From contig NZ_KB235939.1 of NCBI RefSeq assembly GCF_000332315.1, positions 41,294 through 79,540 of the forward strand: a DNA stretch of 38,247 bases, written 5' to 3'. Below the pieces are notes generated by a model that was given only the letters and a program-made list of their open reading frames with translations, was not told the origin of the DNA and did no database searches. Source of the stretch: Prochlorothrix hollandica PCC 9006 = CALU 1027. GTDB lineage: Bacteria; Cyanobacteriota; Cyanobacteriia; Prochlorotrichales; Prochlorotrichaceae. The translations under genes and the position numbers were made by a program. Below, piece after piece: positions 819 through 37,524 of the stretch. How positions within the stretch are numbered: position 1 is the stretch's first letter; the number at the start of each line of letters is the position of its first letter.

Positions 819-1907
819 TTAGGTTTTGGGTAGATCCGAAACCCCTCGCCCTAGGATCTGTGATGCAATGGCGCAGTCTTGGGCAATTTGATCTTTCAGG
901 GCTTCCAGGGAGGCAAAGGTTTGTTCCGATCGCAAAAACTGCACCAGATCGACCCGTAACACTTGGCCATAGAGATCTAATGCCAAGGGATCTAACGCCG
1001 AGGGATCTAACGCCGAGGGATTTAATGCCGAGGGATTTAATGCCGAGGAACTTAACACCGAGGGATCTAAATCCGACGGCGATCGCCCGCCTCTTTCCCC
1101 CAGAATATGCACTTCCAAGGTTTGATCCTGGCCGGCAATGGTGGGGCGGGTGCCAATGTTCATCACACCGGGGCGGGGCTGGCTCCACGGACGATCGAGA
1201 TTGTGTACCCAAACCCCATAAACCCCCTGGCGCGGGACAAACTTATGGGGCGGCAATTGGAGATTGGCGGTGGGGAATCCGAGGGTGCGCCCCAGTTGCT
1301 GGCCCCGCACCACCTGGCCTTGGATGCCATAGGGACGACCCAGTAAGGCGTTGGCCCGGTGCAAATCCCCCTGGAGCAGGGCGTGGCGAATGGCGGAACT
1401 ACTGATGCGCTCTCCCTGCCAGATTTCCAGGGGGGTGATGTTGACAGGGATCTGGTGACGGGCGGCGATCGTTTGGAGATCCTGGGCGCTGCCCGATCGC
1501 CGCGATCCGAAACAAAAGTCTTGGCCCACGCTCAGCCCCTGGGCTTGCAATTTCTGCAATAAAATCTCTTCCACAAATTGGGTGGGGGAGAGGGTCGCCA
1601 GTTCTCGGTTAAAGGGCAACAACACCAGTTGCTGCACCCCCAGGCTTGCCAGTTGCTGGGCTTTTTCCGGGATGGGTGTGAGGAGGGCTTTGGGCTGGCC
1701 GCTGAAGAATTCCTGGGGGTGGGGGCTGAAGGTGACGACGGTGCTGTGGGGGGCAGCGGCGAGGGAGGATCCAAGCTTGGGCGGGCGATCGGCTCCGGGC
1801 AACATCGGGGCAATGACCTGGACGTGACCTTGATGCACACCGTCAAAGTTGCCTAATGCCGCCAGGATGGGGGTTCGGACTTGATCGAAAGAAGAGGCTA
1901 TCCACAC
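819..1907 (-). CDS. ribF: bifunctional riboflavin kinase / FAD synthetase RibF
   Basis: The enzyme phosphorylates riboflavin to FMN and adenylylates FMN to FAD in the cytoplasm. The N-terminal nucleotidyltransferase domain shows GNFDGVHQGH (residues 19-28), then VVTFSPHPQEFF and VGQDFCFGSRRSG. The flavokinase domain follows with GRTLGFPTANL, GVYGVWV and GVMNIGTRPT. The length of 362 residues exceeds the usual 300-330 because of a low-complexity insert (about residues 278-308). The insert is built from a 15-bp unit coding S-A-L-[ND]-P, repeated about six times (positions 960-1075), between the strand LEVHILG and the conserved C-terminal YGQVLRVDLVQFLR. Both flanking blocks are intact, so the insert is probably a tolerated surface loop. 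The gene is monocistronic as far as visible; the next minus-strand gene upstream ends at 2266. Confidence 0.95.
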   Translation of the reverse strand: MWIASSFDQVRTPILAALGNFDGVHQGHVQVIAPMLPGADRPPKLGSSLAAAPHSTVVTFSPHPQEFFSGQPKALLTPIPEKAQQLASLGVQQLVLLPFNRELATLSPTQFVEEILLQKLQAQGLSVGQDFCFGSRRSGSAQDLQTIAARHQIPVNITPLEIWQGERISSSAIRHALLQGDLHRANALLGRPYGIQGQVVRGQQLGRTLGFPTANLQLPPHKFVPRQGVYGVWVHNLDRPWSQPRPGVMNIGTRPTIAGQDQTLEVHILGERGGRSPSDLDPSVLSSSALNPSALNPSALDPSALDPLALDLYGQVLRVDLVQFLRSEQTFASLEALKDQIAQDCAIASQILGRGVSDLPKT

Positions 1908-2049
1908 GGTTTAGATTGTGCCATAGTTTCGGCTTGGGGCGGATGAGTTATCCTAACCCGGTCATTTATCCTAACCTGATCCGTTGGTTTGCCTGGGTTT
2001 GGTGTTGAATCGGGCGATCGCTCCAGGGGATTAAAGGGATCACCCCCGT

Positions 2050-2170
2050 TGGGCAACTTGCTCTTCATCCCTCATCCCCCAGCCCCTTCTCCCAGGACGG
2101 GAGAAGAGGAGCCAGAACGTTCAAAGTCCCTCTCCCGTTCTGGGAGAGGGATTTAGGGTGAGGGCAGCCC
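2050..2170. repeat. family D dispersed repeat, copy 1
   Basis: About 120 bp with the run CCCTCATCCCCCAGCCCCTT, then a 22-bp block beginning GAGCCAGAACGTTCAAAGTC and an end GGGAGAGGGATTTAGGGTGA. The same blocks recur at 27084-27198. It contains short internal inverted repeats (TCCCGTTCTGGGAGA). It lies between ribF and the LD-carboxypeptidase gene; nothing else is recognisable between 1908 and 2265. Confidence 0.6.
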
Positions 2171-2265
2171 CAGCGGGATGCTCCCGGATTAAAAGACTTC
2201 GAGTGATGGATACAGGGTAGGGGAGATCAGGGGGGCAGCGGCAACGTCAGGGAGACTTTCAGGAC

Positions 2266-3243
2266 CTAGGCGACGATCGCCAAATTCCCCTCATCGCCAT
2301 CCAAAACCGCCATGGATCCCACCGGCAACAGGGCATTAGCCCCATCATGGCCAAAGGGCAGACCGGAGACAATGGGAATGCCCAGATCCCCCAGGCGATC
2401 GTGGAGCACCTCGGCCAGGGTCAAACTCGGGACTCCTGGGGGCGGGTCACAGCGGCTAAAGCGGCCCAGGGCAATGCCCCGCACCCCGTTGAAGGCTCCC
2501 GTCATGCGCCATTGGGTCAGGTCTCGATCGAGGCGGTAGGGCACTTCCCCCACATCCTCTAGGGCCAAAATCACCCCCGTTAAGTCCGGCTGCACAGGAG
2601 TTCCCAGCAACCGGGTTGCCACCGTTAGATTTCCCGGTAACAGCCGTCCCCTCACTGTTCCACCGCCCCACCCTTCCCCCCGCAGGGGATCCAGATCCCC
2701 GCCCCGCAGGTAGCCAAAGAGCCGATCCTGGGACCACTGGGGTTCCTGGGCTAGGGTCGTCAGCACGGGACCATGGAGTCCCACGCCCCCCGCCCGGTAG
2801 AGGCTCCACAGGAGCGCGGTCATATCGGAAAATCCCAGCAGCCACCGAGGAGAACCGGCGGGGGAAACGCCAGAGAAAGCGCCAGAGAAAGCGCCAGAGA
2901 AAGCGCTAGGGGAAGCGCTAGGGGAGCTAGCCCCAGTCGCTACACCAGCCTCTGGCCAGTGCCACTGTTCCAGCAGCCGCGCCGCGCCCCAGCCCCCCCG
3001 AACCCCCACCACGCCCCGGTAGGTGCAATCGGTCCACGCTGCCGCCAGTTGCTGTCGCCGTTGGTCATCGCGGCCCGCCAGATAGCCCCAGCGATCGCCG
3101 TAGCCCGCCGCCAGATCGACCCTATACCCCTGATTGCGCCACAGATCCAGGCTCTGGTGCAGCACCTCTGTTTCCCGGAGGGTGCCGCTGGGGGTGATGG
3201 CGATGAGGCGATCGCCCGCTTGGAGGGGATAGGGGAAGGCCAT
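2266..3243 (-). CDS. LD-carboxypeptidase, peptidase family S66 (MccF/LdcA type)
   Basis: This is a serine peptidase of the S66 family, which trims the terminal D-alanine from muropeptide tetrapeptides during murein recycling or cleaves aminoacyl-nucleotide toxins (MccF). The nucleophile is Ser139 in LLGFSD, and the other triad residues fit Glu229 (LALEDVG) and His299 (GLPFGHDG). The N-terminal Rossmann-like half shows LIAITPSG and VRGGWGA. The length of 325 residues is normal once a short AFSG tandem insert (12-bp unit, about 2866-2930, residues 112-125) is discounted. That insert lies before the nucleophile block in a likely loop. No neighbour links it to a particular pathway. It has no signal peptide, which fits cytosolic recycling. 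Confidence 0.9.
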   Translation of the reverse strand: MAFPYPLQAGDRLIAITPSGTLRETEVLHQSLDLWRNQGYRVDLAAGYGDRWGYLAGRDDQRRQQLAAAWTDCTYRGVVGVRGGWGAARLLEQWHWPEAGVATGASSPSASPSAFSGAFSGAFSGVSPAGSPRWLLGFSDMTALLWSLYRAGGVGLHGPVLTTLAQEPQWSQDRLFGYLRGGDLDPLRGEGWGGGTVRGRLLPGNLTVATRLLGTPVQPDLTGVILALEDVGEVPYRLDRDLTQWRMTGAFNGVRGIALGRFSRCDPPPGVPSLTLAEVLHDRLGDLGIPIVSGLPFGHDGANALLPVGSMAVLDGDEGNLAIVA

Positions 3244-3290
3244 AGTGGGGGGTGAAATAGTGGGTAAACTGTTTAAGGTGAGAATAAAGG

Positions 3291-3369
3291 CTTACCGCTG
3301 AAAGCGGGATAAGATTAATGAGACAGTGGAGCGCGGAGCGCCCCACTGTCTCGGCTTAAGTTGATACCC
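3291..3369 (+). repeat. family B palindromic repeat, copy 1
   Basis: About 79 bp with the blocks CTTACCGCTGAAAGCGGGAT, AAGATTAATG, a near-perfect palindrome AGTGGAGCGCGGAGCGCCCCACT and GGCTTAAGTTGATACC. Six further copies occur at 11380-11455, 18560-18754 (interrupted), 19401-19475, 34252-34330, 35923-36000 and 38148-38238. All are intergenic. Confidence 0.8.
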
Positions 3370-3378
3370 AGAATAAAT

Positions 3379-3516
3379 ATGACCAATCATGTTTTGGCCT
3401 TGGGGGGCGTGGTTTTGGGGCTAGGGTTTTGTTTAACCTTTTTGGTGGTGGTGATTAGTTTGGTGGAGATTTTAGGCCGCTGGTTAACGGGGGTTGAGTC
3501 CGATCGTTCTGCCTAA
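3379..3516 (+). CDS. small single-span membrane protein, 45 residues
   Basis: An ATG frame of 45 codons encodes a polar start (MTNHV), one long hydrophobic segment (about residues 5-32, GVVLGLGFCLTFLVVVISLV) and a charged tail (GVESDRSA). One membrane-spanning helix with a short cytosolic tail is likely. It resembles in style the small OadG-like or photosystem-associated membrane peptides, but no specific family is recognised. It stands alone on the plus strand between a family B repeat and a minus-strand gene, and no strong ribosome binding site is visible. It could be a chance frame. Confidence 0.4.
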   Translation: MTNHVLALGGVVLGLGFCLTFLVVVISLVEILGRWLTGVESDRSA

Positions 3517-3585
3517 GACCTGGGATCCTGACCCTAGTACGCCAGGGGCTAAGTTCCCCTGCTCGGCAAAATCCCAGCCCATTGG

Positions 3586-4581
3586 CTAGTCTTTCTGGCG
3601 CTTTTCCTGTTGGCGCTTTTCCTGTTGGCGCTTTTCCTCTTGGCGCTGCTGGGCCTCCCGCCGTTCCTGTTCTAATTGGGCTTGGCTGTGGCGATCGTGG
3701 GCTTGGCGGTTTCGTTCCTGGCGATCCCGTTCTGCATCCGCTTGGGCTTGTTCTAGCCGTTGCTGGCGATCGTACTCCCGCCGTTGGCGATCGAGGGTCT
3801 TGTCCTGGCCCTGGCTGGGGGATGAGGGCAGACCTTTCCCAGAGGAAAACTGCCGTTTATCTTGCTGTTGCTGGCGTTTTTGCTGTTGGCGGTCTTGGGT
3901 CAGGTGCATCTGGATGATCCCATCTTGAAAATGAGTAATCCCACTGAAGCAGGCAATCGCAAAGTAAAACAAGCGCAAGATCCAGGTATTGAAGGAGAGC
4001 CAACCGATAACCCTGGCCTGATCCCAACCCACCAATCCCCCCACCAAGGATCCCACGCGATCGGCCCCCAGGGTGGCTTGACGCACTTGGTCTGGCTCCA
4101 GGGGTAGCACCGTATACTGGGCCGTGAAGCGATAGTAGCCCCAAAATCCCGTATCCCCTAGGGTGCTTTGGAGCCATTCATTGGTGAGGGTTTTGGCGGT
4201 GGCATAGGTCAGGTCATTGGCAGTACTGACCCCATTCACCCAAAGCTGGTAATGCAGAAGACTGCCGCTAAGAAACAAGAGGGGCATGAGGACAACCAGC
4301 AGACCATAACTGATGTGATAGCGGGAGTCCGGGGGCAAAAACCGGGTCAACAGTCCCAAACCCATGCCCACAATGGCAAAAATGAGAATGTTGAGCAAAT
4401 CCAAGACTTCTAGGCTGCGCACCAATCCCCCCACCAGGGGCAGGGGATACAGCAGTCGCTGGGCCACAATCACAGCGGCTGCTTTGGCCATGAAGGCAAG
4501 GCCCACCAACAGGGTGGTCAGGATACCATAGATGATTAAATTCCGCGATCGTGGGGAAGAGGTCGGCGCTGAAGCAGCCAT
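3586..4581 (-). CDS. polytopic membrane protein with Gln/Arg-rich coiled-coil tail
   Basis: The product of 331 residues is not assigned to a named family. The first 230 residues contain about four hydrophobic segments (roughly 16-38, 58-80, 90-110 and 200-222) separated by a soluble loop of about 80 residues. The last 100 residues are almost entirely Q, R, E, D and K (QQQKRQQQQDKRQ, RQQRLEQAQADAERDRQER) and end in three copies of the five-residue unit QEKRQ, encoded by a 15-bp tandem repeat at about 3590-3650. The tail should form a long charged helix in the cytoplasm. The start ATG at 4581 gives a short Ser/Pro-rich leader before the first helix. It lies 119 bp downstream of glmS on the same strand and could be cotranscribed; no functional link is evident. 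Confidence 0.75.
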   Translation of the reverse strand: MAASAPTSSPRSRNLIIYGILTTLLVGLAFMAKAAAVIVAQRLLYPLPLVGGLVRSLEVLDLLNILIFAIVGMGLGLLTRFLPPDSRYHISYGLLVVLMPLLFLSGSLLHYQLWVNGVSTANDLTYATAKTLTNEWLQSTLGDTGFWGYYRFTAQYTVLPLEPDQVRQATLGADRVGSLVGGLVGWDQARVIGWLSFNTWILRLFYFAIACFSGITHFQDGIIQMHLTQDRQQQKRQQQQDKRQFSSGKGLPSSPSQGQDKTLDRQRREYDRQQRLEQAQADAERDRQERNRQAHDRHSQAQLEQERREAQQRQEEKRQQEKRQQEKRQKD

Positions 4582-4700
4582 AAGCGCTGGTATCCTTGCC
4601 TAGGTATGAAATGAGTCTGGGGCTGGATTGGGGAAACGGGTTCTGTCCAGGTTTTGTTGGTCCAGTCTCTGGAAAATTTACCCCACTTTTGACCGATTTC

Positions 4701-6674
4701 CTATTCTACGGTGACACTCTTGGCCAAGTTACGGGGCTGATCCACATCTAAACCCCGCAGGGCAGCAATGTAATAGGACAGTAACTGAAGGGGAATCACC
4801 GTCAGCAACGGAGAAACCAGCTCATCCACCGGCGGCACCGCCAGGAGATCATCAAACATATCTGCTTCTCGTCCTATGGTGCTGACCCCAATGATTCGGG
4901 CATCGCGGGCTTTGGCTTCCTGGGCATTGGACAGGACTTTCTCATACACGGCACCGGGCACCGCGATTGCCACCACCGGCACCTTGGCATCCAACAGGGC
5001 AATGGGTCCATGCTTCATTTCCCCAGCGGGATAGCCTTCGGCGTGGATATAGCTAATTTCCTTGAGCTTCAGCGCCCCCTCCAGGGCAATGGGGAAATTA
5101 ATCCCCCGCCCCAGAAAAATGAAATCGTGGGTATCCACAAACTCATGGGCCAGGGTGGCGATCGGTTCCTCCTGATCCCTCAATAACGCCTCCATTTGCT
5201 TGGGTAGCTGGTGCAGGGCGCTGACCAGGGCGAGGAGACGATCGCTGGGCAAGTGGTGGCGATGGTGGGCCAAGTCCAGGGCCAGGGCATAGAAGGCCAT
5301 CAGTTGGGCCATAAAGGTTTTCGTGGCCGCTACCCCCACTTCCACCCCTGCCGGGGTCAGGATCACATTGGGCAGGACATGGGCCAGGGTACTTTCGGGG
5401 CGGTTGGTGATGCCCAGCAGTCTAGGCCGGTAGTCGCCGCCCTGGGGAGAGCCTTGGTGGTGGTTGCGCCGCTCCTGTTCCATTTCCAGGGCCGCGAGGG
5501 TGTCGGCGGTTTCCCCGGACTGGGTGACCCCAATGGTGAGGGTGTGGGGCATCAGGGGCGTGGGGGCATAGCGGAACTCGGAGGCATAGTGAACCGTGGT
5601 GGGAATGCCCGCCACCTGTTCCAGCAAATATTTGCCCACCAGGCTGGCGTGCCAACTGGTGCCGCAGGCCACAATCTGCACCTGTTGCAGATCGCTATAG
5701 AGATCGTCGCTAAACCGCAGTTGAACGGGGGATAACGGGTTTTGGGTTTCTTGGTTTTGGATTTCTTGGTTTTGGGTTTCTTGGTTTTGGGTTTCTTGGT
5801 TTTGAGTCGCTTTCTCTAGCCACTGGCCATTGAAGTAGGCTCCTAAACAGGCCCGCATGACTTCCGGCTGTTCGTGGATTTCCTTGAGCATGAAGTGGCG
5901 GAACCCTTGTTTCTCCACTTGGCTGGGGTTCCAGTCCAGGGTGCGGGGTTGCTTGCGGAGGCGCTCCCCCTGGAAGTTATAGACCTCTACGCCCAGGGGG
6001 GTGAGCTTGGCGATTTCCCCATTTTCCAGGGAGAGGACGGTTTGGGTATGGTTGGCGATCGCCGTCGTATCCGAGGCGCAGAAAAATTCCCCTTGGCCAA
6101 AGCCAATACAGAGGGGGGCTTGCTGGCGGGCAATGATTAACTCGTCGGGATAGGCGGCACAAATCACCGCGATCGCAAAGGCTCCCTCCAACTCCTGGAT
6201 GGCGCGGCTGATCGCTTCCAGCAGGGGCGAGAACGGTTGGGCAGTTTCGGCGGCGATCGCCGTCAGGTGGTGGGCAATGAGGTGGGGGATGGTTTCGGTG
6301 TCGGTATCCGACTCAAAGGTATAACCGAGGGCACTGAGGCGATCGCGCAAATCTCGGTGATTTTCAATGATGCCGTTTTGCACCACCGCCACCCCCTGTT
6401 CCCGGTTGAGGTGGGGGTGGGCGTTGCGTTCTTCCGGTTTGCCATGGGTGGCCCAGCGGGTGTGACCAATGCCAATTTGGGCAGGGCTACTGTGGTCTTG
6501 GAGCCGGGTTTGGAGGTTATACAGTTTGCCCTTGGCGCGAATACACTGAATCTCCCCCTCCCATAGGGTGGCGATACCGGCAGAGTCATAACCCCGATAT
6601 TCTAGTTTGCGCAGGCCATCCAAGAGGATATCGGTCGCGGTCTGGGTGCCGATATATCCCACAATTCCACACAT
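4701..6674 (-). CDS. glmS: glutamine-fructose-6-phosphate aminotransferase (isomerizing) GlmS
   Basis: The enzyme makes glucosamine-6-phosphate from fructose-6-phosphate and glutamine, the first step to UDP-GlcNAc for peptidoglycan and lipopolysaccharide. The sequence starts MCGIVGYIG with the catalytic Cys2 (after Met removal) of the class II amidotransferase domain, followed by GIGHTRWATHG and QNGIIENH. The two SIS domains carry VACGTSWHA, TQSGETADT and FLGRGINFPIALEGALKLKE, and the C-terminus LAKSVTVE is the conserved end. The length is 657 residues against about 610-630 usually. The excess is a tandem NQETQ insert (15-bp unit, five units, about residues 286-314) in the linker between glutaminase and SIS halves. 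No glmS ribozyme is visible upstream, as expected for cyanobacteria. Confidence 0.97.
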   Translation of the reverse strand: MCGIVGYIGTQTATDILLDGLRKLEYRGYDSAGIATLWEGEIQCIRAKGKLYNLQTRLQDHSSPAQIGIGHTRWATHGKPEERNAHPHLNREQGVAVVQNGIIENHRDLRDRLSALGYTFESDTDTETIPHLIAHHLTAIAAETAQPFSPLLEAISRAIQELEGAFAIAVICAAYPDELIIARQQAPLCIGFGQGEFFCASDTTAIANHTQTVLSLENGEIAKLTPLGVEVYNFQGERLRKQPRTLDWNPSQVEKQGFRHFMLKEIHEQPEVMRACLGAYFNGQWLEKATQNQETQNQETQNQEIQNQETQNPLSPVQLRFSDDLYSDLQQVQIVACGTSWHASLVGKYLLEQVAGIPTTVHYASEFRYAPTPLMPHTLTIGVTQSGETADTLAALEMEQERRNHHQGSPQGGDYRPRLLGITNRPESTLAHVLPNVILTPAGVEVGVAATKTFMAQLMAFYALALDLAHHRHHLPSDRLLALVSALHQLPKQMEALLRDQEEPIATLAHEFVDTHDFIFLGRGINFPIALEGALKLKEISYIHAEGYPAGEMKHGPIALLDAKVPVVAIAVPGAVYEKVLSNAQEAKARDARIIGVSTIGREADMFDDLLAVPPVDELVSPLLTVIPLQLLSYYIAALRGLDVDQPRNLAKSVTVE

Positions 6675-11831: not shown

Positions 11832-11922
11832 TCCTTGGGCTTATCCTTGGGCTTATCCTTGGGCTTATCCTTGGGCTTATCCTTGGGCTTATCCTTGGGC
11901 TTATCCTTGGGCTTATCCTTGG
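11832..11922 (+). repeat. 12-bp tandem array between nusA and infB
   Basis: The unit TCCTTGGGCTTA is repeated about seven times with no variation until the last unit (TCCTTGGCATCC). No reading frame there is credible, so the unit length of a multiple of three is not explained by coding. The homogeneity suggests recent expansion. Confidence 0.85.
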
Positions 11923-11973: not shown

Positions 11974-12256
11974 GTAATTATTCAGGGGGTCACGGGAGAA
12001 TGAGGGTTTCAGGCTTCAGAAAACAGACCTGAGGCGATGGGAGAGGGTCTATTTCACCTTGGCAGATTCCCCGATTTTGGTAGGGGCAATCCCCCCGTGG
12101 TTGCCCCGGCTGTGGGTTGCCAAGAGGTTCGGCACGGGGGCGAGAACCCTACCCGAGGTCGATGGTTCCAAGGTGAAGTGCATACCGTTGATCCGGCTCT
12201 GACCGGCGATCGTGGGGCTGAAACCCTACTCACTTCGTCCCTCCCTGAATAGTTAC
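11974..12256 (+). mobile_element. family C MITE, copy 1, with 9-bp target duplication
   Basis: This 283-bp element has terminal inverted repeats GTAATTATTCAGGG / CCCTGAATAGTTAC (a few mismatches). It is flanked by a perfect 9-bp direct duplication GTTGGCTCC at 11965-11973 and 12257-12265. The interior (GGTAGGGGCAATCCCCCCGT, GGGGGCGAGAACCCTACCCG) is shared with 32390-32670 and, inverted, 37122-37404. It ends 12 bp beyond the nusA stop codon. It has no transposase, so it would need one in trans. Confidence 0.85.
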
Positions 12257-12268
12257 GTTGGCTCCTTC

Positions 12269-13843
12269 CTATAGTTCAGGTTCAGCTTCTTCAGGTTCAG
12301 CTTCTTCAGGTTCAGCTTCTTCAGGTTCAGCGTCTTCAGGTTCAGCTTCTTCAGGTTCAGCGTCTTCAGGTTCAGCCTCTTCAGGTTCAGCTTCTACCTC
12401 TGCCCCTGGGGGAGTGCTGAGGTCTTCTCCTGGGGCTAACCCTAGATTTTGATGGGCTACGGCATTATCGGCTACGGCATTATGGGTATCCGTCTCTGGG
12501 GTTGCCTCCAGGTTTTCTGGTTCTTCGGCCTGATGGTTATCTAGGTCATGGTTATCGAGGTCATGGTTATCGAGGTCATGGTTATCTAGATCTAAGGGTT
12601 CTGGGTCTAAGGTAGACTCAGCGTCTTCATCGTCAGCGTTATCATCCTGACCCGGATCCTCCTCGTCATAGTCCCGGTTCAGAACCGGCGTAGCCCAAAG
12701 CTCAGGATTAAACTCATATTTGGCCGTATCTTTGATGTCAATTTTCCAACCCGTCAGCTTAGCAGCAAGGCGAACATTTTGGCCGTCTTTCCCGATGGCT
12801 AAGCTCAGTTGATCCTCATGGACCAAAACATGGGCTTGGCGCATTTCGGAGTTAACCAAGTGAATGTCATCCACCCGTGCCGGACTTAAGGCATTGGCAA
12901 TGTAGGTGGCCGGATCCAGGGACCAGCGAATGACATCAATCTTTTCGCCCCGCAGTTCGTTGACCACCACTTGAATGCGCGATCCCCGCGCCCCAATGCA
13001 GGCTCCCACGGGATCTACGTCTTTTTCCAGGGTGTCCACGGCGATTTTGGTGCGGGGACCCACATGGCGGGAGGGGGGGTTGGCTTCTCGGGCGACGGCC
13101 ACAATGCGCACAATGCCGTCTTGAATTTCCGGCACTTCATTTTCAAACAGGTACACCACCAGTCCTGCATTGGCGCGGGAGACGATGATTTGGGGACCCC
13201 GGCGGGGAATATCAGCCACTTCCCTCAGGAAGACCTTAAAGGTGGAATTGGCCCGGTAGTTATCGTTGGGGAGTTGTTCCCGGCGGGGTAGTTCTGCTTC
13301 CACTTCTGGGCGGCCAAAGCCACTGCTGACGGCTAGGACCACGGATTGCCGCTCAAACCGCAGCACCTTGGCGGAGAGCACAGGGTCTTCTAGATCCTGG
13401 AATTCTTCTTGGATTAAACGCCGCTGATGATCCCGCAGTTTTTGGGCTAAAACCTGTTTGGTTTGGATGGCTGCCATGCGACCGAAGTCTTCTTTTTCGG
13501 GGGTCACATCCAGCACCACCGTATCCCCCATTTGGGCTTCTGGGGCGACTTCCTGCACTTCCCGCAGGGCGATTTCATGGTCGGTGCTGGTGACCTCTTC
13601 CACAATGCTTTTGGTGGCTAGAACCCGGAAGCCTTCTCCATCCACATCCAGTTCCACTTCAAAGTTCTCAAAGTATTCTTCCTCAAAGTGGGTATTACCC
13701 ATGTGCTGGGTGCGGCGGTAGCGCTCATAGCCTTTGAGGAGGGCTTCTTTCAAGGCTGCTTCCACGACGGATGTGGGCAGTTTTTTTTGTTCACTAATGG
13801 CCTCAATCATTGTTTGCAGATTGGGCAAGCTAACCATGGTCAT
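12269..13843 (-). CDS. nusA: transcription termination/antitermination factor NusA
   Basis: NusA binds RNA polymerase and nascent RNA, controlling pausing, termination and antitermination. The N-terminal domain begins MTMVSLPNLQTMIEAIS and contains ALLKGYERYRR. The S1 domain follows, then the KH region with DPVGACIGARGSRIQVVV, GEKIDVIRW and LSLAIGKDGQNVRLAAKLTGW. Cyanobacterial NusA usually ends soon after this (about 400-430 residues). Here an acidic tail of about 130 residues follows, including four HDLDN units and about seven EPE[ED]A units, each from 15-bp tandem repeats (12276-12400 and 12535-12590). The tail resembles acidic RNA-polymerase-binding extensions only in charge. The start is 42 bp after rimP. 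A family C element sits directly behind the stop codon. Confidence 0.96.
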   Translation of the reverse strand: MTMVSLPNLQTMIEAISEQKKLPTSVVEAALKEALLKGYERYRRTQHMGNTHFEEEYFENFEVELDVDGEGFRVLATKSIVEEVTSTDHEIALREVQEVAPEAQMGDTVVLDVTPEKEDFGRMAAIQTKQVLAQKLRDHQRRLIQEEFQDLEDPVLSAKVLRFERQSVVLAVSSGFGRPEVEAELPRREQLPNDNYRANSTFKVFLREVADIPRRGPQIIVSRANAGLVVYLFENEVPEIQDGIVRIVAVAREANPPSRHVGPRTKIAVDTLEKDVDPVGACIGARGSRIQVVVNELRGEKIDVIRWSLDPATYIANALSPARVDDIHLVNSEMRQAHVLVHEDQLSLAIGKDGQNVRLAAKLTGWKIDIKDTAKYEFNPELWATPVLNRDYDEEDPGQDDNADDEDAESTLDPEPLDLDNHDLDNHDLDNHDLDNHQAEEPENLEATPETDTHNAVADNAVAHQNLGLAPGEDLSTPPGAEVEAEPEEAEPEDAEPEEAEPEDAEPEEAEPEEAEPEEAEPEL

Positions 13844-14675: not shown

Positions 14676-14810
14676 GCAGACCAGAACATTGCAGACCAGA
14701 ACATTGCAGACCAGAACATTGCAGACCAGAACATTGCAGGCAATCACGGTGCAGGCAATCACGGTGCAGGCAATCACGGTGCAGGTCATCACGGTGCAGG
14801 TCATCACGGC
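14676..14810 (+). repeat. two adjoining 15-bp tandem arrays
   Basis: Four copies of GCAGACCAGAACATT are followed without a break by about five copies of GCAGGCAATCACGGT / GCAGGTCATCACGGT. Both units share length, phase and the start GCAG, suggesting one array that diversified. The array is intergenic and just downstream of the minus-strand terminator at 14825-14852. Confidence 0.85.
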
Positions 14811-19475: not shown

Positions 19476-19527
19476 CCCAGCACCCTAAGGTCCAGAACCC
19501 TAAACTGTAGAATTTCAGGATAGGGTG

Positions 19528-19586
19528 TCACTGGAGCATCACTGGGGTATCACTGGGGTATCACTGGGGTGTCACTGGGGTATCAC
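19528..19586 (+). repeat. 12-bp tandem array upstream of rimK
   Basis: The unit TCACTGGGGTAT occurs about five times with single-base changes. The remainder of 19587-19894 has no gene. GACCGGAGATTTTTT is partly duplicated just before the rimK start (GGAGATTTTTTGACCGGAGA). Confidence 0.75.
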
Positions 19587-20800: not shown

Positions 20801-20932
20801 GGGATCCGGACTACCTGGCCCAGGTATCGATAGGGTTGACTGAAGGTTAACGGCGATCGTCCTGGGTTCGGGATTCCCCCCCCAGCCCTAGCCTTTGCTT
20901 TGCATTCCCGTCCTCATCAGATCGCGATAGCC

Positions 20933-23900
20933 ATGGGTCTTGGTCAACTGCCCTGTTCCACCACCACCGTCCCTCAGGTTTTGGCCCTGGGTTCCTGCCT
21001 TGGGTTCTGGGGGGCGAGTCTCCTGGGGTTTGTGCCGGGGGCGATCGCCCAAATCAGTCCCGACAGCAGCCTGTCCCCCTCTGGCAACAGTCAGGTCACC
21101 CGCACGGGCAACCTGTGGCACATCAGCGCTGGCACCACTGCCGGAGACAACCTCTTCCATAGCTTTGCCACCTTTCAACTGGGCACGGGCGAAACAGCCT
21201 ACTTTGACAATGCCCCGTCCATTGCAACGATCTTTGCCCGGGTCACGGGGGGCAGTCCCGCTATCCTCAACGGCATTCTCCAGGCCAACGGCAGCGCCAA
21301 TCTTTTTTTGCTCAGTCCCCAGGGTATCCAGGTGGGCAGCGGTTCCCGGCTCCAACTGGGGGGTTCCTTTGTGGCCAGCACCGCCGATCGCCTCCTCTTC
21401 CAGTCCGGTGAATTCAATGCCAGCCAGCCCAATCTGCCCCCCCTCCTCACCATTAATCCCCCCCTGGGCTTCCAGTTCGATCGTCCCGCCCGTCCCATTA
21501 GTCTCCAGGACAGTGGCCATGGTTTAAGCAGTAGTAGTTCCGTTGCGCCCCTGGTCTTGGGCAGTGCCCCTGCCAACGCGCTCCAAGTGGCTCCTGGCCA
21601 GTCCCTGGTGCTGTTGGGGGGGGCGCTGGAGTTGGACGGCGCGGGCTTGGTGGCCTATGGGGGTCAGGTCAGCTTGGGATCCGTGAATCAGGGGTTTGTG
21701 GGGTTGAACTGGGGGCAATCCGATCGGGGCACTCCCGCCTTGACCTTGGACTATGGCCAAACCCAGGGCTTCCAGTCCCTCCGCCTCCGCCGCCAAGCCC
21801 TGGTGGATGTTAGTGCTTTGCCCCCTGCCTTCGGCGGTGTGCGGGCCGGATCGGTGCAGGTACAGGCCCAGGATCTGACCCTGGAGGATGGCTCCGTAAT
21901 CATGGGTCAAAACTTTGGTCCCCAGGCGGCGGGTACCCTGGCGGTGCGGGCGGCGGGGAATATTACCTTGACGGGCACGGATCCGCGATCGGGGGGACTG
22001 CTGCGATCGATGGTGCTGACCAACAGCCTGGGGGGGGATGCCGCTGCCATCACCGTGACTGCCGGGGGCGACATCATGGTGGACGATGGGGGAGCCATTG
22101 CCAGCATTAACTTTGGCCCTGGGGCGGGGGGCGATGTGACGGTGCGAGGGCGTTCCCTGACCATTGTCGGGATCTCCGCCTTCACCAGCGCCACCAATAG
22201 TGCTGTGGCCTCCCAGAGCGTCGGAGCCTTGGGACGGGCGGGCAATCTTAATGTGGCGGTCGATCGCCTGCGCTTAGAAGACGGGGGGCTGTTGGTGTCC
22301 AACACCTTTGGACCAGGGCAGGGGGGGACTATTACCGTGGCGGCGAGGGAATCGGTCATTCTCCAGGGCTTTGATCCCAGTTCTCGCCTCAGCAGTATCA
22401 TCACACCGGCCACCTTTGGCAGTGGTAATGCGGGATCTGTGATTCTCACCACCCCCAGCTTGCGGCTGATTAATGGGGGCCAAATTAGTACGGCCACCTT
22501 TGCCGGGGGGGATGCGGGCAATGTCAGTATCACCGCCCAAGATATTGTGCTGGAGGGCAATGACACAGGCTTGCTCAACCAAACCCTCATTGGTTCTGAT
22601 GGGGGAATTCTGTCCCTAGAGTCCCAGATTCGCTTTGGGGTGACGGCTCCCAGCGGGCGATCGGGGGATGTGCAGATTAGCAGCCAAACCCTAACCTTGC
22701 GCAACAATGCCCTGCTTAGTGTCAATAATCTGGGTAGTGGTGCTGGGGGCAATCTGAGGCTCTTTTTACAGACTCTCCTCCTGGATACCCAGGCCCAAAT
22801 CACCGCCGCTGCCCAGTCCGGGGAAGGGGGCAATATTGTGGTGGAGGCCGATCGAGCCATCTTTCTCCGCCAAGGCAGTCGCATCACCGCCGAAGCGGGC
22901 GGCAGCGGCAATGGGGGGAATATAACCCTGACCACGCCCCTGTTAGTGGCAATTCCCAGGGAAAATAGCGATATCATTGCCAATGCCTTTGAGGGCAATG
23001 GGGGCAATATTCAGATCAACGCCCAGGCCATTTTGGGGTTGGATGCGCGACCAAACCTGACTCCCCGCAGCGACATCACCGCCAGTTCCCAGTTGGGGCT
23101 GTCGGGTACGGTTCGGTTTAATGGTCCCGAAGCGGATGTTAGTTCTGGGTTGGCGGACTTGCCGATTCAGGTGGCGGATGGGGGGCAGCCGGTGGCCGAT
23201 CGCTGTGCCGCCGCCACGGGTAACCAATTCACCGCCACGGGGCGGGGGGGACTGCCGGAAAACCCCCTGGATCCCCTCCGTAGCCCCAGCCTCTGGATCC
23301 CTGCCCCCGTCACCCCCCCTGCCCTGATCCCAGAAGCCCAAGGTTGGCACCGGGATCCCCAGGGACGGATCTTATTAGCCAAAACTTCCTTGGCCAAAAC
23401 TTCCTTGGCCAAAACTCCCTTGGCCGCAACTCCCGTCACCCCAGCCGCCCCCGATCCCCAATCCCTCGGATCCCTGGTCAATCGGGTACAAGATCTGCGG
23501 CAGGGGGGCTATTATCGCCAAGCTCTGGCGTTATTGCAGCCCTGGGTTGAGGCTAGGGAATCCGGCGTTGTTCAACCCGACAGCCCCCAACAGGTTATCG
23601 CCCTCCGCAGTCTGGGGGTTTTGCGCCATCTGACGGGGGATCTCCTGGGGGCGAAGCCGTTGCTGGAAGCCAGTTGGGCCATGGCCGATCGCCTGAACTT
23701 GCCCCTGGAACAAAGCCAAACCCTCCTGGAGTTGGGGAATTTGGCGCGGGACTTTGCCCTAGCCGATGTGGCCCAAGGCTATTACCGCGATGCCGCCACC
23801 CTAGCCACAGGTGTAGGGTTTGACCTGGCTGTTAACCCGGCTGTTAACCCGGCTGTTAACCCGGCTGTTAACCCAACGATTAACCCAACGATTAACCCAA

Positions 23901-25822
23901 CGATTAACCCACCTGAAGCCCTGGATCTCCCGTCCCACCCCACCGCTGCCCTGGTGTCTGTCCAAGCCCGCCTCAATAGCATCAGCCTTGCCTTAGATCA
24001 ACAACAGCCCCAGGTGGCTGCTGCCCTGGTTCCTGCTGTCGTCGCCGATCTGGCCCTGATTCCCCCCCAACGGGCCACCGTCTACGCCGTCCTTAACCTG
24101 GTCGCTAGCCTAGGACGGATCCCCGCCCCCCTCCTGTCCCCCGCCGTCCCAGAACCCACCGCCCTCTTAGCCCAGACGGCCCAACAGGCAGAAACCCTGG
24201 ACGATCGCCTTGCCTTAGCCCAGGTTTGGCTACACCAGGGTCAGCAAGCCCTAGAGGCCGATCGATCCGCCGATGCCCTTGCCCACAGCCGCCGGAGCCT
24301 TGCCCTGGCCCAAGAACTCCAGGAATCGGATCTGGTGGCCCGTGCCGCCACCCAATTGGGGCAAATTTACCTGCACCAGGGCCAACCCAGTGCCGCTCTG
24401 CCCGCCTATCAGGTGGCCTATGCTGCCCTGCAAACCCTCCGTAGTGATCTGGTGGCCACAAACCCAGATCTGCAATTCTCCTTCCGGGACAGCGTAGAGC
24501 CGGTGTATCGGCAATTGGTGAGCCTGCTCCTGACCGTAGCGCCTGCGGCTAGTGCCAGCGCCTCTAGTGCTGCCAGTGCCATCCCCGACCCTAGCCACCA
24601 GGCCCATCTGCGCCAAGCCCTGGCAGTGATTGAAAGCTTGCAACTGGCGGAACTGGATAATTTCTTCCGGGATGCCTGCCTCACGGCCCGTCCCCAGGAC
24701 ATTAATCAAATCGATCCCCAGGCGACGGTTATTTATCCCATTCTCTTGGACGATCGCCTAGAGGTCATCGTGGCCTCTGCCGATCGCCCCCTCCAGCACT
24801 ACAGCACCCCTGTTCCCCGCCCCCGGGTGGAAGCCGTCTTACAAGAGCTATACTCCTCCCTCCATCCGGGCTATCCCCAGAATCTCCACCGCCAAGTTGC
24901 CCAACAGGTCTATGACTGGTTGATTCGCCCTGCGGAAGGGGAACTGGCCCAGGCCCAACCGGAAACCTTGGTCTTTGTTCTTGATGGTGTCCTGAAAAAT
25001 ATTCCCATGGCTGTACTACAGGATGGGGAGCAGTATCTAGTCGAACGTTATGCCCTCGCCCTCAGTCCTGGTCTCCAACTCTTGCCTCCCCGTCGTCCCG
25101 ATCGCCATGGCCAGGTCCTCGCAGCAGGTCTCACGGAAGCCCGCCAAGGGTTCTCCCCCCTGCCCGCCGTGGCCCAGGAACTCCAGGATATTACGGCCCA
25201 TCGATCGGGCACCATTCTCCTCAATGAACAATTTACCCCCTTGACCCTGGCCCAAACCCTGAGCCAGAATCAAGTTTCCATTCTCCATCTGGCCACCCAT
25301 GCCCAGTTCAGTGCCGACCCTGACCAAACCTTTTTGGTGACTTGGGACGATACCCTAGGGCTGGGGGATCTCGGTCGCTTGCTCCAACCCAGCCAGTTGG
25401 GATTAGCAGAACCCATCGATCTGCTGGTGATGAGTGCTTGTCAAACTGCCAAGGGCGATCGTCGCGCCGGGTTAGGCTTAGCGGGGTTTGCCCTGCGATC
25501 TGGTGCCCGCAGTACCGTGGCCAGTCTTTGGTCCGTCAGTGACAGCTCCACCGCCCGCTTGATGGGGGAATTCTATCAACACCTGAATGGTCAGGATCTG
25601 CCCGTGGGTGCCCACGGTTCTAGGATTGCTCCCCCTAACTCCAACGCCCCTAACTCCAGCGCCCCTAAACCCAGCGCCCCTAACTCCAGCGCCCTTCAAT
25701 CCAGCGCCCCTAAACCCAATAAAGCCGAAGCCCTGCGTCAGGCTCAATTGGCCCTTCTCCACGACCCCCAATATAGCCATCCCTACTTTTGGGCCGCGTT
25801 TGTTTTGGTGGGGAACTGGTAA
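20933..25822 (+). CDS. secreted TpsA-type (haemagglutination domain) protein with TPR and C-terminal CHAT protease domain
   Basis: This giant exoprotein has about 1629 residues. The ATG at 20933 gives a signal peptide ending near GAIAQ; an earlier in-frame TTG at 20900 is less likely. The TPS secretion domain follows (GDNLFHSFATFQLGTGETAYFDN-type sequence and NLFLLSPQGIQVG), then a Gly/Asn-rich beta-helix to about residue 740, closed by the conserved ADRCAAATGNQF and GRGGLPENP block. A linker and TPR-like helices span about residues 850-1240. The CHAT caspase-like domain ends the protein, with His1456 (ILHLATHAQF) and Cys1503 (LLVMSACQTA). Three tandem low-complexity inserts are present: KTSLA, NPAV/NPTI and APNSS units of 15, 12 and 15 bp. 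A DUF928 gene follows 61 bp downstream. No TpsB outer-membrane partner is in the window. The protease substrate is unknown. Confidence 0.9.
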   Translation: MGLGQLPCSTTTVPQVLALGSCLGFWGASLLGFVPGAIAQISPDSSLSPSGNSQVTRTGNLWHISAGTTAGDNLFHSFATFQLGTGETAYFDNAPSIATIFARVTGGSPAILNGILQANGSANLFLLSPQGIQVGSGSRLQLGGSFVASTADRLLFQSGEFNASQPNLPPLLTINPPLGFQFDRPARPISLQDSGHGLSSSSSVAPLVLGSAPANALQVAPGQSLVLLGGALELDGAGLVAYGGQVSLGSVNQGFVGLNWGQSDRGTPALTLDYGQTQGFQSLRLRRQALVDVSALPPAFGGVRAGSVQVQAQDLTLEDGSVIMGQNFGPQAAGTLAVRAAGNITLTGTDPRSGGLLRSMVLTNSLGGDAAAITVTAGGDIMVDDGGAIASINFGPGAGGDVTVRGRSLTIVGISAFTSATNSAVASQSVGALGRAGNLNVAVDRLRLEDGGLLVSNTFGPGQGGTITVAARESVILQGFDPSSRLSSIITPATFGSGNAGSVILTTPSLRLINGGQISTATFAGGDAGNVSITAQDIVLEGNDTGLLNQTLIGSDGGILSLESQIRFGVTAPSGRSGDVQISSQTLTLRNNALLSVNNLGSGAGGNLRLFLQTLLLDTQAQITAAAQSGEGGNIVVEADRAIFLRQGSRITAEAGGSGNGGNITLTTPLLVAIPRENSDIIANAFEGNGGNIQINAQAILGLDARPNLTPRSDITASSQLGLSGTVRFNGPEADVSSGLADLPIQVADGGQPVADRCAAATGNQFTATGRGGLPENPLDPLRSPSLWIPAPVTPPALIPEAQGWHRDPQGRILLAKTSLAKTSLAKTPLAATPVTPAAPDPQSLGSLVNRVQDLRQGGYYRQALALLQPWVEARESGVVQPDSPQQVIALRSLGVLRHLTGDLLGAKPLLEASWAMADRLNLPLEQSQTLLELGNLARDFALADVAQGYYRDAATLATGVGFDLAVNPAVNPAVNPAVNPTINPTINPTINPPEALDLPSHPTAALVSVQARLNSISLALDQQQPQVAAALVPAVVADLALIPPQRATVYAVLNLVASLGRIPAPLLSPAVPEPTALLAQTAQQAETLDDRLALAQVWLHQGQQALEADRSADALAHSRRSLALAQELQESDLVARAATQLGQIYLHQGQPSAALPAYQVAYAALQTLRSDLVATNPDLQFSFRDSVEPVYRQLVSLLLTVAPAASASASSAASAIPDPSHQAHLRQALAVIESLQLAELDNFFRDACLTARPQDINQIDPQATVIYPILLDDRLEVIVASADRPLQHYSTPVPRPRVEAVLQELYSSLHPGYPQNLHRQVAQQVYDWLIRPAEGELAQAQPETLVFVLDGVLKNIPMAVLQDGEQYLVERYALALSPGLQLLPPRRPDRHGQVLAAGLTEARQGFSPLPAVAQELQDITAHRSGTILLNEQFTPLTLAQTLSQNQVSILHLATHAQFSADPDQTFLVTWDDTLGLGDLGRLLQPSQLGLAEPIDLLVMSACQTAKGDRRAGLGLAGFALRSGARSTVASLWSVSDSSTARLMGEFYQHLNGQDLPVGAHGSRIAPPNSNAPNSSAPKPSAPNSSALQSSAPKPNKAEALRQAQLALLHDPQYSHPYFWAAFVLVGNW

Positions 25823-25883: not shown

Positions 25884-27023
25884 ATGTTTAAGTCTTTGTC
25901 CCTTCACCCTACTGCCCCTTCCCTGGCTACCCCTGCAATGGGTTCCACCCCAACCCTTCAGGCTTGGGGCTGGATCTCTGCCAGCCTGATCCCTTCCAGT
26001 CTGATCTCTGCCAGCCTGATCTCTGCCACCTTCACTGTCTGTACCCTTAGCCCAGCCCAAGCCCTGTCCTTCAAACCCCCCGCTGAGTCTGTGCCTGCCA
26101 ATAGCTTGGGAGGAGGTGTGCGGGGCAAGGTTCAGTTTACGGCCCCCAGTAGTGCCGCTCCTGTCAATAGCTTAGGGGGCGGAGTCCGAGGCCGTGTCCA
26201 GTTTGCCGTGCCAGCCCAAGCCACTCCCAGCGACAGTTTAGGGGGTGGCACCCGTGGCGGTGTTCGCTTCACCGTGCCCGCCCAAGCAACACCCAGCGAC
26301 AGTTTAGGGGGGGGTACCCGTGGCGGTGTTCGCTTCACGGTTCCGGCTCAGGCAGCCCCCAGGGCCAGTGTCAGTGGCGGCAGTCGAGCAGCAGACAGGG
26401 TCGCTGACTCGTTGGCTGTTACCCCTAACTCCGCGACGACGATCGCCGCCCTTGATCCGCATTTTGAGACCCTCTCCCGTCCCCTGGAACCCATTGCTCT
26501 GGTGCCCGATCGCCAATACCTGAGCTATACCGTCAGTCCTCGCCCCACCTTTTTTGTCTATATGCCCCCCATGGCCACCGATGGGGTTTTCTTCAGCATC
26601 CAAGCTGAAAACGGTGAACCCTTGTACCACACCCTGCTTCAGGTGCCCGCAGACGGGGGTATTGTGCGCTTTACCTTGCCAGACGATGCCCCTGCCCTCG
26701 CCCTGAACGAAAACTATGCCTGGTTTTTTGTGCCGATCGAAGCGGGGGGAACGCTGCGCCCTGACAGCCCCGGCACCGTGGCTTGGATTAAACGGGTGGA
26801 ATCTCCCCTAACTGCCTCGGATCTCGCCTCCTCTGTCCCAACCTTGGAGCAGGTGACCCAACTGGCCCAGGCGGGTATCTGGTACGACACCCTCGCTGCC
26901 TTGGATCAGGGACTGCAAGGGGAACCGGGCACCTCTGAACCCCTGGAGTCAGACCTGTGGGCTTCGGAATGGGACGATCTCTTGCAGTCTGTGGGCTTGG
27001 AAGCCGTCCTGTATCAACCTTAG
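25884..27023 (+). CDS. DUF928 family exported protein with N-terminal glycine-rich repeats
   Basis: This cyanobacterial protein of unknown function, about 379 residues, starts at the ATG at 25884 (MFKSLSLHP). It has a leader with SLISASLISATFTVCTLSPAQA that looks like a signal peptide. Then come four repeats of about 22 residues (SLGGGVRGKVQFTAP, SLGGGTRGGVRFTVPAQA). The DUF928 domain occupies about residues 190-330: YTVSPRPTFFVYMPP, GEPLYHTLLQVPADGGIVRF and ENYAWFFVPIE. It ends with a short helical part (TLEQVTQLAQAGIWYDTLAAL). The gene lies 61 bp behind the TpsA-CHAT gene, a pairing seen in other cyanobacteria. This suggests they act together at the cell surface, but no mechanism is known. 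Confidence 0.85.
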   Translation: MFKSLSLHPTAPSLATPAMGSTPTLQAWGWISASLIPSSLISASLISATFTVCTLSPAQALSFKPPAESVPANSLGGGVRGKVQFTAPSSAAPVNSLGGGVRGRVQFAVPAQATPSDSLGGGTRGGVRFTVPAQATPSDSLGGGTRGGVRFTVPAQAAPRASVSGGSRAADRVADSLAVTPNSATTIAALDPHFETLSRPLEPIALVPDRQYLSYTVSPRPTFFVYMPPMATDGVFFSIQAENGEPLYHTLLQVPADGGIVRFTLPDDAPALALNENYAWFFVPIEAGGTLRPDSPGTVAWIKRVESPLTASDLASSVPTLEQVTQLAQAGIWYDTLAALDQGLQGEPGTSEPLESDLWASEWDDLLQSVGLEAVLYQP

Positions 27024-27502: not shown

Positions 27503-28087
27503 CTCTTCTTAAGCCGCTATTCTTATCAATCTGAACGGCTCCCCTAGAAGGGCTGCGGGTCTGTCCCCCATCCAGATCTGAAATCGGAGTCGTTACAGGG
27601 GGAGCCGCATGGGGAATACTAAATAGACAGATAAAAAGCAGGGAAAAGCAACTGAGTTGGGCAGGGGTTTAGCCCTTACGAGCCAATGGCTACTTTTTTA
27701 TCGATGGGTTCGCTTTATGAACCTCGATCGCGTTATGGCGCTAAATCGACTGAGCTATCAAAAAAGCTAGCCATAAGAAAAGCCCCTGGGAGTCTTTCCG
27801 TGTTTCGACCCCAGAGGCATTTTCGCTCGAACTTTCACTCCTCACACGCCTATTAATGTACTAAACGATGCCTGCCCCTAGGGCTACTCTGTGCCACTTT
27901 CCTACACTGGCACAACTTGAGATGAGGGGTCATACTGCCTCAGAAGCCAGGAAAAAGTAGCCTCCATCCCCGGATTAGCCGTTCCCCTTAGCGCGATCGC
28001 CATCACTGACTTTTGGGGGGATGCTGTATGCTTATGCTAATGAAATCTGGTTTTGACCCCGACGTTCCACCAGGATTTAGGTGACCT
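27503..28087. other. gene-less stretch with several hairpins and RNA-like motifs
   Basis: No coding frame is supported. At 27686-27774 an inverted repeat (ATGGCTA ... TAGCCAT with T6/A6 inside) encloses a tRNA-like segment on the minus strand (GATAGCTCAGTCG, GGTTCATAAAGCGAACC) that does not complete a cloverleaf. At 27837-27847 the 11-mer ACTCCTCACAC equals the conserved core of the cyanobacterial sRNA Yfr1, but the flanking hairpins expected of Yfr1 are not clear. The promoter of the next gene should lie near 28030-28080. Confidence 0.4.
27777..27818 (-). terminator. hairpin with T-rich tail on the minus strand
   Basis: The stem GCCTCTGGG / CCCAGGGGC has one G-T pair and is followed by TTTTCTT on the minus strand. 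The loop contains GAAACACGGAAA inside a second short stem (GTC/GAC). It may end an RNA transcribed from about 27850 downwards, or be a structured RNA itself. Confidence 0.45.
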
Positions 28088-28846: not shown

Positions 28847-29305
28847 ATGATCGAGGATCTACCCCAGACGGTGGCGGTGGATCAGGACCGGGCGATCGCG
28901 ATCCAGGGTTCTGGTGCCCTGGCGGGGTCCACGACTGCAGAGATTCCCGGTCAAGCCGCGAGTCAGGTGTCTGGTCAGGTGTCTGGTCCGGTGTCTGGTC
29001 AGGTGTCTGAGGGGGTTGCAGGAGCCGCGATCGCCCCCCTGGCAGCCCACGTTATCATCACAGGACGAGTGCAGGGGGTTTGCTACCGGCTGGCAACCCA
29101 GCAAGAAGCTCAACGCTTAGCCCTAGCAGGATGGGTGCGCAATTTGCCCAGTGGCCAAGTGGAAGCTGTATTTGAGGGCGATCGTGATGCGCTTGAGGAC
29201 ATGGTGCTTTGGTGCCACCAAGGGCCATCCCAAGCCCGCGTCACCCAGGTGGCTCTACACTGGCACGTTGCCCAAGGCTACGACTCGTTTACCATTCGGC
29301 CTTAG
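28847..29305 (+). CDS. acylphosphatase with repetitive N-terminal extension
   Basis: Acylphosphatases hydrolyse acyl phosphates such as carbamoyl phosphate. The catalytic domain occupies the last 88 residues: HVIITGRVQGVCYRLAT contains the phosphate-binding loop with its Arg, GWVRNLPSGQVEAVFEGD contains the catalytic Asn, and YDSFTIRP is a normal C-terminus. Acylphosphatases are usually about 90 residues. Here an ATG at 28847 adds about 64 residues of low-complexity sequence with a four-residue G-Q-V-S unit repeated three to four times (12-bp repeat, 28970-29010). The true start could be further downstream, though no ATG lies close to the domain. No operon partner is obvious. Confidence 0.88.
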   Translation: MIEDLPQTVAVDQDRAIAIQGSGALAGSTTAEIPGQAASQVSGQVSGPVSGQVSEGVAGAAIAPLAAHVIITGRVQGVCYRLATQQEAQRLALAGWVRNLPSGQVEAVFEGDRDALEDMVLWCHQGPSQARVTQVALHWHVAQGYDSFTIRP

Positions 29306-32280: not shown

Positions 32281-32389
32281 CCCCACCATCTCTGCCCTAG
32301 CCCCACTGTCAGTCCACCAGCCCTTGTCCAGTCCGGTTGGGCGGGGAAGGTTACCCGGCAGGCTAGACAGACTGAGCCAACCCTACAAA

Positions 32390-32670
32390 GAATTATTTAG
32401 GGGTCCACAGGAGAATGAGGGTTTCAGGCTCTAGACAACAGACCTTAGGCGATTTGAGAGGGTCCATTGCACTGGGGTGGGTTCACCGATTTTGGTAGGG
32501 GCAATCCCCCCGTGGTTGCCCCGGTTGTGGGTCGCGAAGAGGGTCGGCACGGGGGCGAGAACCCTACCCGAGGTCGAGGGTTCCCCAGTAAACTGAACCT
32601 CTTTGAGACGGTTCTGATCGGCGATCGTGGGGTTGAAACCCTACTAACTTCGTCCCCCCTGAATAGTTAC
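32390..32670 (+). mobile_element. family C MITE, copy 2, with 9-bp target duplication at the gatA stop
   Basis: About 281 bp with ends GAATTATTTAGGGG (slightly decayed) / CCCTGAATAGTTAC. A perfect 9-bp duplication CCCTACAAA lies at 32381-32389 and 32671-32679. The right-hand duplicate contains the gatA stop codon (TAG, 32673-32675 on the minus strand), so the element inserted exactly at the 3' end of gatA without disturbing it. The interior is shared with copies at 11974 and 37122. Confidence 0.85.
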
Positions 32671-34330: not shown

Positions 34331-34653
34331 CCCCCAAACCGACCCCGTAGCCGTAAGAGTCCCCATTTAGGGCCAGGGGATAGCAGCCAGATGGGGGTGT
34401 CCGATCCAGTGGTCACAACTCCAGTGGTCACAACTCACTGCCATGGGTCACCCTGCACCCCAATGTTGCGGCTGTGTTACGGCTGTGTTGCGGCTGTGTT
34501 GCGGCTTTTTATGGAGACCCATGGGCTAAATCCTGGGTGATCCTAGGGAATTGCTGACAAAGCCAAAAGCCATGCTGTAGCCAACCCCCTTTCGACTAAA
34601 ATGTTCTTTAGATTGTTCTTAGGATTGCGGTTCTAGCCAGACAGACCAGCATC

Positions 34654-36474: not shown

Positions 36475-36993
36475 ATGTCTTGGGCTAACCTTCTCCAACC
36501 CAACCTGATCCTACCGGGATCCGTCATTGACATTACCCCAGACTTACTGCGACAACACCAGATCCAGGGACTGATTCTTGATGTGGATGATACCCTGGTG
36601 CCTTCGACGGTGCCCCATGTGTCTGAGCAGCTCTGCGACTGGGTTGAAGCCCTACGCCCCCATGTCAGCCTCTGGCTGGTGACTAATAATGTGAACCGCA
36701 ATCGCATTCGTCGCATTTCTGAGGCTGTCAAGGTGCCCTATCTGCTGGGGGCGGGCAAACCCTCCCGGCGCAAGCTGCGGGAAGCGGCCAACGCCATGGC
36801 CTTGCCTCACGCTGGTATTGCCATGGTGGGCGATCGGCTGCTGACCGATATCTTGGCGGGCAATCGCCTCGGAATGTTTACCATTCTGGTCAAACCCATG
36901 GGTCAGTCAACCTTCGGTCACCAGCGGTGCATCCACCAATTTGAATATTGGCTGTCCCAACACCTCAGTTCCCACCACACTGCCGATCTTTAA
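36475..36993 (+). CDS. YqeG family HAD IIIA-type phosphatase
   Basis: This small HAD-superfamily hydrolase has 172 residues. Motif I is LILDVDDTLV with the nucleophile Asp36 and the acid Asp38. Motif II is LWLVTNN. The Lys of motif III lies in LGAGKPSRRKLREA. Motif IV is MVGDRLLTDILAGNRLGM. YqeG proteins dephosphorylate small phospho-metabolites such as phosphatidylglycerophosphate in some lineages; in cyanobacteria a PgpP-like role in phosphatidylglycerol synthesis is plausible but not shown by the sequence. Length and motif spacing are normal. Downstream, 36998-37056 has a 14-bp unit (CGGGCTATTTTTAA) repeated about four times. Confidence 0.92.
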   Translation: MSWANLLQPNLILPGSVIDITPDLLRQHQIQGLILDVDDTLVPSTVPHVSEQLCDWVEALRPHVSLWLVTNNVNRNRIRRISEAVKVPYLLGAGKPSRRKLREAANAMALPHAGIAMVGDRLLTDILAGNRLGMFTILVKPMGQSTFGHQRCIHQFEYWLSQHLSSHHTADL

Positions 36994-36997
36994 CGGG

Positions 36998-37404: not shown

Positions 37405-37524
37405 TCCCGTTGGATCCTCAAGGTAGGTCACGGGTCAGAACCCTCGATCGTTACACCCCACATTCAGCAGGTTGTTCAAAGGGATAAAATGTTTAAGAAT
37501 TTCACAAACAAAAGGGGTTAAGAG

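Follow-up and report, generated by a model that had tools for sequence, protein, structure and literature searches.

The chromosome of the cyanobacterium Prochlorothrix hollandica PCC 9006 is pervaded by short tandem arrays with units of a narrow length range and of nearly always different sequence, which in genes almost invariably preserve the reading frame. We consider it likely that these arrays make visible a bias towards tandem duplication that acts on the whole chromosome and is filtered by the reading frame and by protein disorder. Our analysis centered on a window of 38,247 nucleotides (contig NZ_KB235939.1, positions 41,294 to 79,540), for which an earlier note had described in-frame 12- and 15-bp inserts in conserved housekeeping enzymes. 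While that observation holds, the reading was too narrow: the coding arrays are a share of a genome-wide process, and the note missed the intergenic arrays, which are denser and show other periods (11, 13, 14 and 16).

Arrays in the window and the proteins that carry them

Arrays were detected with TRF, and a second count of perfect repeats was made with no threshold of score or length. Every array named in the earlier note was recovered by TRF and by direct reading, and the gene names were confirmed by Pfam. On the reverse strand, the gene for RibF (riboflavin kinase/FAD synthetase, ORF 819-1907) contains 6.5 copies of a 15-bp unit coding for approximately SALDP (974-1070); that for an LD-carboxypeptidase (ORF 2266-3243), 4.7 copies of a 12-bp unit coding for AFSG (2864-2918); and that for GlmS (ORF 4701-6674), 4.5 copies of a 15-bp unit coding for NQETQ (5738-5804). 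NusA (ORF 12269-13843) has two 15-bp arrays, one at the C-terminus with 8.1 copies (EPEEA/EPEDA; 12275-12395) and another with 3.6 copies (HDLDN; 12533-12586). TRF and direct reading added one that the note lacked, a C-terminal array of 3.5 copies of a 15-bp unit (EKRQQ; 3596-3647) in ORF 3586-4581 of the same strand. On the forward strand, a large TPS/TPR/CHAT protein (ORF 20900-25822) displays three sets of repeats: 1) a 15-bp array coding for KTSLA (23378-23434); 2) two abutting 12-bp arrays, four copies of NPAV followed by three of NPTI (23823-23911); 3) an imperfect 15/45-bp array near the C-terminus coding for APNSS (25632-25718). On this strand, too, the gene for a DUF928 protein opens with a 15-bp array (25973-26028), and the acylphosphatase gene (ORF 28847-29305) contains four copies of a 12-bp unit (28962-29009). 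Between genes TRF recovered arrays of period 14, which is no multiple of three (600-652), of period 12 with 7.6 units that are 100% identical (11832-11922), two abutting ones of 15 bp (14676-14809), and two of period 11 (19523-19586 and 34464-34506); a further array of period 14 runs across the 3' end of ORF 36475-36993 (36986-37050). The window additionally contains copies of a dispersed repeat of approximately 200-290 bp (11974-12264, 32387-32670 and 37218-37405), found at many sites in the genome sample and probably a MITE-like or structured repeat, and, on the reverse strand, a match to the Cyano-1 sRNA above the gathering score (27774-27851).

The inserts keep the frame and occupy places that the proteins tolerate, as the note had proposed. 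Its claim that they are foreign to the respective families is proven for RibF, where the loop between '...VHLLDWSG' and 'DLYG' holds about 37 extra residues compared with none in 31 homologues. The loop belongs to a beta-hairpin in the flavokinase domain, and in an AlphaFold2 model based on a 22-sequence alignment residues 273-308 have pLDDT values below 50 between confident strands on both sides, which makes the insert a disordered extension of the hairpin. The claim is also fair for GlmS, in which, judging from homologues and Pfam, the array separates the glutaminase and SIS domains. The NusA arrays lie in a C-terminal tail that varies among relatives and is acidic in every one of them, and that of the acylphosphatase lies outside the domain (residues 68-150 in Pfam), in an N-terminal extension. 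In the LD-carboxypeptidase the array sits between the first Peptidase_S66 stretch (residues 16-97) and S66C (residues 198-313), as delimited by Pfam. The description of the repeats as uninterrupted was partly right: adjacent coding units in the genome sample differ at 8.4% of positions, and the RibF and APNSS arrays are visibly imperfect.

Density, unit length and the reading-frame filter

To place the window in its genomic context, we used a sample of 34 stretches of 20 kb that together with the window amount to 718 kb (G+C 0.538) of the 5.65-Mb genome (13 contigs). The division into coding and intergenic sequence rests on a home-made gene caller, which gave a coding fraction of 0.75 compared with 71% in the genome published for P. 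hollandica (5.5 Mb, 54.56% G+C; PMC5069947). Matches to phycobilisome genes were few in this genome (four, one of them strong), which, like its G+C content and coding fraction, agrees with the published data; its plastocyanin differs from chain 1b3i_A, the P. hollandica plastocyanin, at one of 97 residues. TRF recovered 419 arrays in the sample (0.583 per kb, 3.75% of bases) as against two after shuffling; since shuffling also leaves no perfect repeats of at least 11 bp (zero for periods 11-40), chance is excluded as their source. The survey that the note had proposed found arrays across the whole genome, with 93 of the 552 genes called in 0.72 Mb carrying one. Each of the long contigs represented in the sample (C1, C3-C7, C9, C10 and C12) has them, and they stand within and beside housekeeping genes; hence they are chromosomal and not located on a linear extrachromosomal element.

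For comparison we ran TRF with identical settings on 40 other cyanobacterial genomes, none nearer to P. hollandica than the class, and obtained a median of 0.1 arrays per kb, with most genomes represented by a single 20-kb stretch. Arrays of at least four copies number 136 per Mb in P. hollandica versus 2.1 per Mb in 39 of the 40 genomes. One cyanobacterial genome, G023, reaches 82 per Mb for such arrays (stretches L070 and L129-L138), and Elainella sp. Prado103 has 14 arrays in 18.6 kb (stretch L042). As these two are also rich, the richness in arrays is probably patchy among cyanobacteria and is likely to have arisen more than once.

In the threshold-free scan the unit length forms a separate peak at 11-16 bp after a trough at 9-10 bp: the intergenic perfect repeats of periods 8 to 18 number 17, 7, 10, 26, 32, 26, 43, 36, 13, 6 and 3, respectively. 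The TRF score threshold hides two-copy repeats shorter than 12 bp, and we had entertained the possibility that a peak at 12-15 bp is an artefact of this threshold, which was dismissed because the peak is retained in the scan of perfect repeats. Periods 5 and 7 lie near the shuffled level. In sequence the units are nearly all different, with two unit sequences recurring (four and three times) among 352 arrays. Their G+C content (0.537) equals that of the sample, they show no enrichment in A, and words containing TTAA are weakly enriched. Examination of the unit sequences also led us to reject purine-rich or triplex-forming units. The divergence of units showed no clear gradient from the ends of arrays (0.927) to their center (0.938).

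The unit-length spectrum is the same inside and between genes. The period is divisible by three in 149 of 154 coding arrays (97%) and in 102 of 242 intergenic ones (42%; Fisher p = 4.9e-33). Under the stricter rule used in the study of archaeal Borg elements (perfect arrays of at least 50 nt and at least three units, here with periods of 9-100) the corresponding counts are 24 of 24 and 15 of 35, and the genome G023 displays the same filter (29 of 31 versus 18 of 72). Intergenic DNA contains arrays of this size at about five times the density of genes, and 58% of the periods there are not multiples of three; the keeping of the frame is therefore a filter rather than a property of the process that generates the arrays. 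Even frame-keeping arrays have a derived density of 0.275 per kb in genes as against 0.575 per kb between them; about half of these were therefore also lost from genes, presumably where the protein was unable to accommodate them.

The surviving coding arrays are distributed evenly along genes, and not at the tails alone. Among the residues that they encode, P, E, N, S, A and T abound, and C, W, M and Y are nearly absent. Where neighboring coding units differ, the three codon positions are affected almost equally (165, 144 and 185), which reveals little selection on an existing repeat peptide. Since synonymous differences are not in excess, the near identity at the DNA level emphasized in the note shows that the arrays grew by duplication. 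Within our preferred explanation the repeat peptides have no common function and are tolerated new disordered segments.

A model for the origin of the arrays and its alternatives

Judging from the junction signature, DNA flanked by two short direct repeats at a spacing of about 11-16 bp would be duplicated (ABA becoming ABABA), either through misalignment of the nascent strand or through ligation of an unremoved 5' flap. In the two-unit intergenic arrays the extra match averages 4.9 bp versus 0.73 bp expected, and part of this match may be left over from arrays that once had more copies. Duplications of this kind are known from rad27-null yeast, including one with a 16-bp unit and an 8-bp A (PMC5677150). 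A new tandem pair would then grow or shrink by further slippage. Three paralogues with a C-terminal REEG array of 12-bp units carry 6, 7 and 10 copies (stretch L006, 19240-19311; stretch L091, 206-281 and 2283-2397), which is indirect evidence that array lengths change, and within the CHAT protein, where the NPAV array abuts the NPTI array, a mutated unit has itself expanded again. Between genes nearly all lengths persist; in genes, the statistics presented above show that frame-changing units were removed together with about half of the frame-keeping ones, the remainder lying where the protein is disordered, in loops, linkers and tails.

As to the pace, the dispersed ~200-bp repeats show few tandem-type gaps (5 of 24), and informative gaps are too few for a neutral clock. 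Given how few these gaps are, the formation of arrays is not extremely fast or avoids the dispersed-repeat sequences. Near-identical neighboring copies in stretch L013 have equal array copy numbers (one pair); together with the scarcity of tandem-type gaps this indicates that the rate of change may be modest.

We also looked for a repair gene whose loss might account for the arrays. None of those examined is missing: the genome has mutS, two recJ genes, sbcD, xseA and a polA that includes the 5' nuclease domain. An apparent 'MutS2' frame of about 2235-2246 residues (stretch L173) was false, as it runs through about 5 kb of masked N (at approximately 1150-6200) beside a mutS2-like gene. In the DNA polymerase I itself (stretch L179, 889-4008, contig C1) the linker that follows the 5' nuclease domain contains array-derived sequence (GSAPGSAPGSALDSVTGS...), and one of the recJ genes (stretch L174, 1698-1939, contig C5) has two 12-bp arrays, with 10.9 and 3.8 copies. 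No array lies inside rnpB, the gene for the RNase P RNA, and several of 11 and 17 bp adjoin it (stretch L108, 1-600). A stronger version of the duplication model would see here a Borg-like bacterial chromosome, in which a dedicated or defective replication step continually makes microhomology-primed duplications of 11-16 bp, the loop lengths of core enzymes vary between cells, and the polA linker could feed back on the process; we regard this as conceivable but doubtful.

A different view is that the coding arrays were selected for function, as binding linkers or for phase-variable tuning of enzyme length, along the lines of Borg proteins and the surface proteins of pathogens. The Borg authors argued for this in the case of Borgs (PMC9879509), and the occurrence of arrays in essential enzymes and the bias of their peptides to disorder-promoting residues would fit it. 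Nevertheless, the identical unit-length spectrum between genes, the near lack of units shared between loci, the even codon-position differences inside arrays and the rarity of in-frame arrays in genes relative to intergenic regions make such selection unlikely. Loss of mismatch repair, which acts on small loops, would indeed raise repeat numbers genome-wide through ordinary microsatellite instability; given that mutS is full length, that period 7 lies near the shuffled level together with period 5, and that the 11-16 bp class is absent from shuffled sequence, we hold this to be very improbable.

The clean appearance of the inserts in conserved proteins might instead suggest a mobile or programmed element that inserts units, either by CRISPR-like growth or as a palindromic element such as RPE. 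As the units are almost all different, have the G+C content of the genome and show merely a weak enrichment in TTAA, and as arrays grow from the local flanking sequence, a mobile unit has very little to recommend it. Tandem repeats are generally known to be error-prone in assemblies (PMC8161180), and an origin in assembly or sequencing would have to be taken seriously were it not that the arrays of the window are mostly shorter than 130 bp and that assembly errors cannot yield a 97% frame rule in genes; this, too, is very improbable. The evidence as a whole thus favors the tandem-duplication bias with its two filters.

Relationship to known repeat systems

A search of the literature available for this analysis found no report on repeats in Prochlorothrix. 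Other short tandem repeats of cyanobacteria, the STRRs, have heptanucleotide (7-bp) units, in contrast to the 11-16 bp peak described here, and period 7 is not clearly in excess in our data. The duplications of rad27/FEN1 yeast share with those proposed here the conversion of ABA to ABABA at short direct repeats (PMC5677150), though they are a mutant phenotype, whereas P. hollandica has the 5' nuclease domain of polA. The intragenic VNTRs of Legionella pneumophila are likewise in-frame coding tandem repeats, though with 26 intragenic arrays in one genome, of which 7 are polymorphic (PMC2639597), as against 93 of 552 genes in the single strain studied here. The prokaryotic satellites of Subirana and Messeguer combine, in some genomes, a constant unit size with variable sequence and vary greatly from species to species; however, their sizes are 20-21 or 52 nt, and their densities, counted with another program, reach 89 per Mb in Methanosarcina and 23 per Mb in bacteria (PMC6749651, PMC8161180), compared with 11-16 bp and 136 per Mb with at least four copies here.

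Several consequences follow from these observations. The sharp unit length constrains the mechanism, the coding arrays constitute a natural record of insertion-tolerant loops in essential enzymes, and the genome offers hundreds of candidate loci for strain typing; short-read assemblies and pseudogene calls for the species may be unreliable at arrays.

Of the systems described so far, the tandem repeats of archaeal Borg elements come nearest (Schoelmerich et al. 2023, PMC9879509). Borgs average 46 arrays per 0.83 Mb, covering 0.62% of bases (PMC9879509), and the same rule applied to P. hollandica gives 85 per Mb and 0.58%. In both, the arrays are pervasive and locally unique and obey a frame rule: all Borg units in ORFs are divisible by three, as are 14-38% of those between genes (PMC9879509), the values here being 97-100% and 42%. 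Common to both, too, are new disordered segments missing from homologues, exemplified here by RibF and by the composition of the coding repeats. They differ in that Borgs are linear extrachromosomal elements with A-enriched units, whereas P. hollandica has units that are not A-rich, often imperfect and confined to a narrow length, which strike core enzymes on a bacterial chromosome of about 5.6 Mb. A culturable bacterium thereby offers a repeat landscape that has so far been best described in uncultured archaeal elements.
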